A stretch of DNA of 64,000 bases from Natrialba taiwanensis DSM 12281 (GTDB lineage Archaea > Halobacteriota > Halobacteria > Halobacteriales > Natrialbaceae): NCBI RefSeq assembly GCF_000337595.1, contig NZ_AOIL01000012.1, forward strand, positions 150,313 to 214,312, written 5' to 3'. How positions within the stretch are numbered: the first letter of the stretch is position 1; each line of letters opens with the position of its first letter. The position numbers and the translations under genes are program-made. Below the pieces are notes generated by a model. That model worked only from the letters and a program-made list of their open reading frames with translations, was not told the origin of the DNA and did not search any database. Positions 45,943-48,050 of this stretch are shown here, piece after piece.

Positions 45943-46257
45943 CGGGACCGGTTGAGGGGGCGCTACAGCACACCGCTCGGCGGGTATTCAGCGGGAGCGT
46001 AGCGCCCGTCGATTATCGGGATTCGCCGCGACAGTTTCAGTACCAAGTGCTGGCGGCGGTGAATTTGACTCCGGAGTTCACCCGAGCGTCGCGTTTGCGG
46101 GCCGAGTTGTGGCGGTGGTGATGGTGGTTGTGGTGGGTGTCGGTGTGGGTTCGATGACTGCGGTGGTGAGAGTGATGGTGGTCTCGCACACCGGCCGACA
46201 ACTCGGCTGGCCGCCGCGACCCGAGTGTAGGTAAACTCGGTTGGCGGTGGCCGTGGC
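45943..46257. other. Intergenic region with a GGT-rich tract
   Basis: This 315-base gap holds no gene. From about 46105 to 46180 the plus strand is dominated by GGTGGT- and GTGG-type units with few cytosines. The neighbouring bases have normal composition. No gene or clear palindrome was seen elsewhere in it. Confidence 0.45.
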
Positions 46258-46527
46258 TTACTCGCCGTCGGAATTCGAATCGGACCGGTTGGGGTCCGGC
46301 GGGGCGACGCGACAGCCGCAGGGGCCGGCGGCGGCTTCGCCGGGGCCGATCATGGTTCGCTGTGCGATCGGCGTCCCACAGCGGGGACAGCGGGGGAGGC
46401 TGACGGTCTCCGGCTCGCCCGTCGTCTCGGTGCCGTTGCTAGCCGTGTCGGGTGCAGTGCCGTTGTCACCCACGTCGCTCGCGGTGCCGTCGCTAGCCGC
46501 ATCGCTCGCGTCCGCGTCGTCGGTCAT
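46258..46527 (-). CDS. Small zinc-ribbon protein with acidic low-complexity leader
   Basis: This 89-residue protein begins MTDDADASDAASDG. Its first half is Ser/Asp/Ala/Gly/Thr-rich, with a repeated TASD/TASN pattern. The second half holds CPRCGTPIAQRT and CGCRV, enough cysteines for one zinc site. An ATG at 46539 would add four residues. The function is unknown. Confidence 0.65.
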   Translation of the reverse strand: MTDDADASDAASDGTASDVGDNGTAPDTASNGTETTGEPETVSLPRCPRCGTPIAQRTMIGPGEAAAGPCGCRVAPPDPNRSDSNSDGE

Positions 46528-46622
46528 ACCGACCGGCACCCCGATTTGCCCGCCCGGTTGACAGAACGCGTTGCTACTGGTCGACTCCGTCGATGCGTCA
46601 ATCGTGCGGGATGTTTATATCC

Positions 46623-46761
46623 CGTGAGAATGTACGCAAACATGGCTGCAAGCTAACCGCTTGGAAGCCACGTCTCGGATGGTGGCTCATCCGGGACATT
46701 TTCATGTCCGTTGTGGCTTCCGTCCTAATTGTTGATTGGTAGTGACTTATATCTACCGCTG
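46623..46761. repeat. Structured repeat element, copy A (candidate non-coding RNA)
   Basis: This 139-base element is homologous to 47746-47887. The outer stem GGAAGCCAC (46663-46671) pairs with GTGGCTTCC (46713-46721). Within it GTCTCGGATG (46672-46681) pairs with CATCCGGGAC (46688-46697) around a six-base loop, all ten positions pairing. A third hairpin pairs GGTAG (46738-46742) with CTACC (46753-46757). The strand of transcription is unknown. TTTATAT just upstream (46614-46620) would suit a plus-strand promoter, and a TATA-like string also lies inside the third hairpin on the minus strand. No protein is plausible here. Confidence 0.55.
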
Positions 46762-46773
46762 GGCGGCGGGAAG

Positions 46774-46864
46774 GAGCGTTCGTCCGCGAGAGAACTCGTG
46801 TCGCTCTGGGCCGAAAATCGCCGTTCGTACTAACGGCAGAGGACGCAGGGACGGTGTAGCCGTC
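46774..46864. other. Cluster of short hairpins after structured element A
   Basis: Three neighbouring hairpins are predicted by eye. GAGCG (46774-46778) pairs with CGCTC (46802-46806) and encloses GCGAG-AGAA-CTCGT (46786-46799). GCCGTT (46820-46825) pairs with AACGGC (46832-46837). GACGG (46850-46854) pairs with CCGTC (46860-46864). Further downstream ACTATTGCT (46986-46994) pairs with AGCAATAGT (47022-47030). The rest of the 46528-47126 gap has no gene. It might be the remainder of a longer structured RNA that starts with element A, or chance in GC-rich DNA. Confidence 0.35.
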
Positions 46865-47092
46865 TCGTGACCGGGTCCACGGACCGAAGCCGACAGCGAA
46901 ATCAGTGAACTTCGCGCTTGTCGGGTGCATCGCCGCGCCGGTCGAATCGGTCGCCTGGTTGAAGGCGATCCGATACGTGCGAGTCACTATTGCTCGAAAC
47001 AGCCGGACGGAATGCGAGTTCAGCAATAGTAGCTACCAGAGGCTGTCGAGGGAGGCGGGACGTGGACGTGAAAACGGAGTTGCAACTGGTGG

Positions 47093-47099
47093 ATTTAAG
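47093..47099 (+). promoter_or_regulatory. TATA-like box of the LURP-one-like gene
   Basis: ATTTAAG lies about 30 bases before the ATG at 47127. It is the only A/T-rich stretch of this size close to the gene. It would give an mRNA with a very short leader. Confidence 0.4.
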
Positions 47100-47126
47100 T
47101 CAGTATTAGAGAATGCTTGAAAACCA

Positions 47127-47705
47127 ATGACGCTGCCGAAGGACTACGATATCGCTGGGATCGACCTTGTGGACGATTCCTATACTGTCGAACAGAGCCT
47201 CGTCCGGAACAAATACAAAGCCGTTGATGCCGCCGGTAACACCGTTCTCAAAGGCAAACAGAAGATGTTCAAAATGAAAGAGGAGTTCCCCTTCACGGAC
47301 GGTGACGGAAACGATGTCTTCACCGTGAAGGCTGGCGGTATCATCGACGTTGCCGGTGACTACCTTCTCACGGATGCACAGACGGGTGAGGACCTGGTCG
47401 TCCTGGATAACGACTTCTCCATTTTTCAGGACACCTGGACGATCCGCGACGGCGATACCGACTCCAAACTCGCTGAAATCAATTCCCGCGGCGCACTGGT
47501 CACGCTGGCCCGCGGCCTCCCCTTCGGTGCACTCATTCCGCACAAGTACGAAATCACCGATGCCAACGGCGATCACGTCGGCTCTATCCACGGTCAGTTC
47601 TCATTTCGAGATCGATACGAAATCACGCTCGATGACGTTAGTACCGTTCCGAAAGAGCCGATCATGGCCGCTGCGATGGTTATCGACGCGATCCAGGGCA
47701 ACTAG
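47127..47705 (+). CDS. LURP-one-related (Tubby-like) protein
   Basis: This 192-residue protein begins MTLPKDYDIAGIDLVDD. Regularly spaced strands such as YTVEQSLVRNKYKAVDAAGN, FTVKAGGIIDVAGDY and HKYEITDANGDHVGSIHG match the 12-stranded LURP-one/scramblase-like barrel. It ends with a hydrophobic helix (IMAAAMVIDAI), as this fold usually does. The family's biochemical role is unknown in archaea. Its composition is less GC-rich than neighbouring genes. Structured repeats A and B flank it on both sides, so gene and repeats may form one module. Confidence 0.8.
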   Translation: MTLPKDYDIAGIDLVDDSYTVEQSLVRNKYKAVDAAGNTVLKGKQKMFKMKEEFPFTDGDGNDVFTVKAGGIIDVAGDYLLTDAQTGEDLVVLDNDFSIFQDTWTIRDGDTDSKLAEINSRGALVTLARGLPFGALIPHKYEITDANGDHVGSIHGQFSFRDRYEITLDDVSTVPKEPIMAAAMVIDAIQGN

Positions 47706-47745
47706 CTGTCGTACCGTTTCGGTTGCGGCCGCGTTCCTTCTCTCT

Positions 47746-47887
47746 CGTGAGAACGTACCCAATCGTGGCTGCAAACCCCATCAGCTTGGAAGCTACGTCT
47801 CGGCTGTCTCAACAGCCGGGACACTGTACGCTGGTTTAGCGGCTTCCGTTCTACTTATTGGACGGTAGCAACTCAGATCTACCGCTG
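47746..47887. repeat. Structured repeat element, copy B (candidate non-coding RNA)
   Basis: This 142-base homologue of the element at 46623 begins 41 bases after the LURP-one-like stop. GGAAGCTAC (47788-47796) pairs with GCGGCTTCC (47839-47847) with one mismatch. GTCTCGGCTG (47797-47806) pairs with CAGCCGGGAC (47813-47822), again all ten positions. One A-T pair of copy A is C-G here, a compensatory change. GGTAG (47864-47868) pairs with CTACC (47879-47883). Conserved single-strand blocks include CGTGAGAA, TGGCTGCAA and GCTTGGAAGC. The rest of the 47706-48082 gap holds only the dnaK promoter region. Confidence 0.55.
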
Positions 47888-48050
47888 AATAACTAGACGG
47901 ACGACAATTCCACGTCTCACCGATTGATAACACAATATCGGCCACCAGGCTTATCCGCTTCCATTCGTACTCGTCTGCGAAATCGCCCGACTGAACAGTG
48001 ACAACGGCGTGTCCAGAATTTTATTCGGCTCACGAGTCTGGCTAGTAACG

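Follow-up and report, generated by a model that had tools for sequence, protein, structure and literature searches.

Copies of a structured-RNA family, apparently undescribed, in Natrialba taiwanensis, and a divergent zinc-ribbon gene as their candidate partner

The window considered here is a stretch of 64,000 nucleotides from Natrialba taiwanensis DSM 12281, in which two similar non-coding elements lie on either side of a LURP-one gene (PF04525; 28.7 bits against a cut-off of 24.5). A small zinc-ribbon gene runs away from the first element on the opposite strand, and the second element lies upstream of dnaK. The features of the locus, in window positions, are listed below.

46088–46257, minus strand: structured tail immediately beyond the stop codon of the zinc-ribbon gene, with two hairpins in the mRNA sense, aligned in 12 copies
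46258–46527, minus strand: gene for a small zinc-ribbon protein (CPRCG...GPCGC), the partner of copy 1, found by profile and divergent from the RNA
46537–46542, minus strand: Shine–Dalgarno-like GGGGTG in the mRNA of the zinc-ribbon gene, pointing to a 5′ leader
46607–46624, no strand assigned: dyad CGGGAT-GTTTAT-ATCCCG with the TATA box at its centre, a putative operator of the divergent pair, with covariation between its arms
46614–46619, plus strand: TATA box TTTATA, the predicted RNA promoter, at conserved spacing
46642–46762, plus strand: RNA copy 1, a predicted intact gene (130 bits with covariance model R1), with its 5′ end predicted at A46642 and an uncertain 3′ end
46643–46670, plus strand: 5′ hairpin H1, UGGCU...AGCCA, with five covarying pairs and a variable apical stem
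46663–46721, plus strand: alternative outer stem P1, GGAAGCCAC (46663–46671) with GTGGCTTCC (46713–46721), seven pairs counted, 95% paired
46672–46697, plus strand: inner hairpin H2 of 10 pairs, 99.7% of cells paired, with covariation
46722–46758, plus strand: conserved 3′ part, GTYCTAATTGTTGA and CTTATATCTACCG, from alignments
47757–47888, plus strand: RNA copy 2, an orphan upstream of dnaK (114 bits with R1), without a TATA box and without a partner gene

A first-pass annotation had described 46623–46761 and 47746–47887 as homologous, non-coding and sharing three stems, one of them with a single compensatory change. Homology is borne out by a whole-genome search, in which the two align over ~145 bp (query positions 6–147) at 73% identity (E = 1.6e-14), and neither codes for protein. 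The compensatory change from A-T to C-G is indeed present in the inner stem (46679/46690 in copy 1, 47804/47815 in copy 2), and covariation across the family far exceeds it, the central pair of this stem being G-C in 115 cases, A-T in 22 and C-G in two, with one U-A in addition. The RNA predicted here is a little shorter than the element as first drawn, running from about 46642 to 46762 in copy 1.

The N. taiwanensis genome carries about 18 copies of this dispersed element of ~150 bp. With the covariance model R1, built from 39 copies, the number of matches per genome across Natrialbaceae ranges from 0 to 31, the copies being diverged from one another, and some are plasmid-borne in Natrinema, Halomontanus, Natribaculum and Halopiger. 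When 292 members of the class were sampled evenly, 47 of the roughly 70 Natrialbaceae among them were positive, and outside the family two genomes had one match each. A phage collection yielded no match to the RNA family; two pattern matches in viral contigs were put down to chance, since neither scored with the covariance model. The earlier suggestion of selection for structure is supported, the elements looking like structured RNA that is selected for its pairing and has many homologues. Nor was the first-pass annotation amiss in finding no named family, as none of the 4227 families of Rfam 15 matched, whether the window was searched at the gathering threshold or the locus at E ≤ 1, and no description was found in the open-access literature. 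The RNA resembles Rfam families in being a structured non-coding RNA with covariation and differs in that it rises above the threshold of none of them; the two window elements are thus apparently members of an undescribed Natrialbaceae family of structured RNAs of ~125–150 nt. At one locus (L117, in genome G027) four copies on one strand form a local tandem cluster within ~4.3 kb; no partner is recognisable for two of the four.

Standard pairs fill 91.5% of the 886 pair cells of the R1 alignment, and the covariation score is 0.168, compared with 0.107 ± 0.007 for shuffled alignments and at most 0.084 with slid partners. From AUGG to CTTCC the RNA has a mean folding z of −3.4. One U-G pair of the inner stem is invariant (39 of 39 sequences) and the pair adjoining it is U-A, U-G or C-G, with U-G in 17 of the 39; because such pairs would read as A-C mismatches in the opposite orientation, the plus strand is taken to be the one that folds. 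Of the three stems first described, two hold across the family: the GGAAGC outer stem and the inner stem of 10 pairs. The GGTAG/CTACC stem forms in both window copies but has all five pairs in 11 of 64 scorable copies, and it was rejected as a conserved third stem; what is kept at that site is the sequence CTTATATCTAC. A further block noted as kept, CGTGAGAA, lies just downstream of the TATA box, where it overlaps the end of the dyad, and belongs to the promoter region outside the RNA. A hairpin overlapping the inner stem, H3, covaries in part, and the apical part of H1 folds despite its variable sequence (mean z −2.1 in 71 copies).

Two stems that exclude each other, P1 and the base of H1, both use GGAAGCC, which pairs either with the 5′ GGCU or with the 3′ GGCUUCC. 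Minimum-energy folds of 141 copies divide into 80 with H1 and 61 with P1, and truncated RNAs take the H1 fold in the five copies shown. H1 and P1 are competing folds of the RNA, which cannot both form in full. In the nascent RNA, GGAAGCC would first pair with the 5′ GGCU to give H1, and the late-emerging 3′ GGCUUCC may then displace this pairing in favour of P1.

In 139 of 145 copies the A of AUGG follows the first T of a TATA-like box at a distance of exactly 28 nt, and an AUG occupies the predicted 5′ end of the RNA in 137 of the 145. As H1 also begins at AUGG, this spacing fits a transcript starting there, and we infer transcription from the TATA box, with AUGG as the 5′ end of the RNA; the predicted start of copy 1 at A46642 follows from the same spacing and from the position of H1. 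No conserved reading follows the AUG in the 145 copies, the first stop being scattered from codon 1 to codon 63 and the frame not being kept, which makes a peptide from the RNA unlikely. The dyad over the TATA box has arms that vary together: across the 145 copies they form 682 Watson–Crick pairs, where arms swapped from copy to copy give 588 ± 9 and, in 2000 shuffles, no more than 619, most copies having CGGGAY/RTCCCG and others CGAGAC/GTCTCG. This pattern suggests, with somewhat better than even odds, an operator of the divergent pair, though the dyad could instead be a feature of the promoter or the site of a regulator encoded elsewhere.

The conserved neighbour, which the first-pass annotation did not name, is the zinc-ribbon gene; a profile located it at 60-odd of 82 RNA copies, and a small divergent Cys-rich ORF accompanies 107 of 140 non-redundant copies, as against 4 of 156 on the other flank and 29 of 1976 random places (control rates of 1.5–2.6%). 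Viewed from the protein side, the RNA lies divergently within 500 bp of 69 of the 74 zinc-ribbon genes in five genomes, with 14 of 14 in N. taiwanensis and 29 of 31 in a second genome, G021. The Shine–Dalgarno-like motif precedes 78 of 85 class A genes, against a background of 17%, the start codon having been picked to favour the motif; it points to a probable leader on the zinc-ribbon mRNA, consistent with transcription from the promoter that the two genes share. A second class of protein (CYRC...CCxDCAA) goes with the promoter sequence CTTTTTG, present in 15 of 15 of its copies and in 0 of 94 of class A; the association, which speaks for the operator alongside the covarying arms, is partly phylogenetic and holds also where one genome (G000) and N. 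aegyptia carry both classes.

The invariant residues of the zinc-ribbon protein are CP.C and CGC. Its AlphaFold2 model is a compact three-stranded fold with a mean pLDDT of 79.7, for which Foldseek returned nothing significant (the best hits were ribosomal subunit chains, E about 0.4), and a sequence search of solved structures gave mainly short zinc-knuckle matches. The protein matches no family in Pfam or NCBIfam, the comparison with HVO_2753_ZBP (PF07754) giving 16.3 bits against a cut-off of 33.2 (best E 0.0088). It is nonetheless reminiscent of HVO_2753, HVO_0758 and Brz, tiny haloarchaeal C(P)xCG proteins with zinc-knuckle cysteines, of which Brz regulates transcription (PMC2253796). It differs from these in that its second half has CGC in place of a second CPxCG, and in its linkage to an RNA gene.

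At about a quarter of the RNA copies no zinc-ribbon partner can be recognised, and about ten of these copies belong to one Halopiger genome. At some copies, including Natrialba copies, the divergent gene instead encodes an acidic protein ending in '...LTELRATADAYARL', without a zinc ribbon (L047, L048, L088, L089, L237 and L147); an HTH-like and a PIN-like gene, both judged by eye, follow near L047. In Halostagnicola (L177, L179, L188 and L197) the zinc ribbon is preceded by an N-terminal stretch, which at L197 weakly resembles HalOD1 (E 0.0016, below the cut-off).

Copy 1 would on this evidence be one half of a two-gene module, made up of an RNA gene on the plus strand and a zinc-ribbon gene back to back with it on the minus strand, and that such a module exists is highly probable. 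The family, fold, strand, promoter position, divergent partner, copy number, and gain and loss are all shown by comparison of sequences. Our fuller reading, to which we would give a probability of roughly 0.6, is that RNA and protein form a feedback pair within this module, the RNA refolding as described and the module probably autoregulated through the TATA dyad. The zinc-ribbon protein would then be a repressor, an RNA-binding protein or both, acting on the dyad, on the RNA or on each; that the module's own protein is what binds the operator or the RNA we rate at a little under an even chance. Although neither RNA nor protein matches a family of Rfam, Pfam or NCBIfam, most of the Natrialbaceae sampled carry the pair, in up to 31 copies per genome. 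So tight a link offers an experimental handle on what small haloarchaeal zinc-ribbon proteins do and, equally, on how archaeal RNA–protein pairs are regulated.

The copy number and the carriage on plasmids suggest a selfish or defence-related role. A bolder proposal, which we regard as speculative and rather unlikely, is that of a new archaeal system in which a zinc-ribbon protein and a refolding RNA that opens with a leaderless AUG hairpin regulate one another through a TATA-centred operator, the ~30 diverged pairs per genome being protein-repressed RNA effectors or addiction modules unlike the types described. An addiction-like (toxin–antitoxin) module seems improbable. Here a small RNA toxin or RNA antitoxin would stand under zinc-ribbon control, following the logic of CreTA with a protein repressor in the place of CRISPR-Cascade. 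The patchy distribution, the divergent copies numbering from none to 31, the plasmids named above and the compactness of an RNA plus a protein would all suit such a module, as would the predicted leaderless 5′ AUG followed by stem-loops, an arrangement reported for one CreT variant (PMC8501985). CreT is likewise a small haloarchaeal RNA with a TATA promoter and a stem-loop, but the RNA described here lacks its conserved rare-codon mini-ORF, is present in many copies per genome and has a zinc-ribbon partner. Consecutive rare codons directly after the AUG, the mark of CreT, were not found as a conserved feature in the 145 copies, in which frame, codons and stop all vary, so the rare-codon mechanism of CreT is unsupported. 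Against an addiction module stands also the persistence of many copies at the same places between species, with flanks about 96% identical.

Two established toxin–antitoxin types were considered separately and set aside: type III, in which a tandem-repeat RNA antitoxin is directly followed by the gene of an endoribonuclease toxin, because the partner is a small divergent zinc-ribbon gene and the RNA is a single unit with no repeat array, and type I, with its antisense RNA, because the RNA and partner genes are divergent and do not overlap. Predicted duplexes of RNA with cognate and non-cognate mRNA scored −70.7 and −72.6, values that look too strong in absolute terms, and gave no advantage to the cognate pair.

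In this Natrialba group the duplicated unit is ~640 bp long and includes the structured tail, which forms its sharp left edge and in whose stems pairing is kept while the letters differ (GCCGAGTTG/CAACTCGGC versus ATCGGATTCC/GGAATCCGA). The plus strand of the tail (46088–46257) is G-rich in places (e.g. GGTGGTTGTGGTGG), and a two-tetrad quadruplex is possible there. A small non-autonomous mobile element, either MITE-like or derived from an IS, with a zinc-ribbon gene aboard by chance and the fold acting as a DNA-level transposition signal, would account for a dispersed unit with such edges, for loci specific to one lineage (a few only are common to the other Natrialba clade), and for the tandem cluster and plasmid copies. 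We consider it quite improbable, because no inverted repeat joining the ends was shared by three units, because all 17 of 17 N. taiwanensis loci have a positional counterpart in N. aegyptia, and because the exact TATA spacing and the G-U pairs suggest that the RNA is transcribed. One locus was examined for empty sites; the module is missing there from four species, and in place of a clean empty site the gap holds 0.7–1.35 kb of other sequence. MITEs and REP-type repeats are similarly short, dispersed, structured and variable in copy number; the unit described here, in which no terminal inverted repeats were found, differs from them also in having a promoter that is conserved and a protein gene linked to it. 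Of the mobile unit suggested in the first-pass annotation there remain the copy-number variation, the plasmids and the lineage-specific loci, whereas transposon ends were not found; gain and loss of the module are real, and transposition is a candidate mechanism. Beside another RNA copy, a segment (L094:3200–4430) is flanked by short genome-wide repeats and is probably an unrelated IS or MITE.

That the RNA might be a cis leader or attenuator of the gene downstream is brought to mind by its two alternative folds, as in riboswitches, and is very unlikely, since at many copies in this genome the gene that follows runs in the opposite direction and is a different one each time, the conserved neighbour lying upstream and divergent.

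A module made of the two elements and the LURP-one gene, as the first-pass annotation had entertained on the strength of the gene's position between them and of a PF04525 score above the cut-off, can be dismissed almost entirely, the gene being missing at every other copy examined and in the sister species that keep copy 2, one of which, N. aegyptia, has a TnpB-like gene at the same place. Among 293 loci, tblastn found LURP-one only at N. taiwanensis copies of this one locus, which answers in the negative the question of whether copies always flank such genes; tblastn was the deciding test, as a whole-genome search for the LOR family was insensitive and missed the known window gene. The LURP-one gene is a bystander. 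Copy 2, for its part, is evidently an orphan paralogue that has lost its TATA box, the promoter box reading CCTTCTCT in the window and CCTTCTAT in N. aegyptia. Its orthologues are found in N. aegyptia and N. asiatica, both without LURP-one at the site, and are absent from the other Natrialba clade, which has one complete module upstream of dnaK here and no second copy. The TnpB-like ORF that takes the place of LURP-one in N. aegyptia (L092:3446–4702) was identified by eye; the stretch that separates the two RNA copies looks like a hot spot for insertions.
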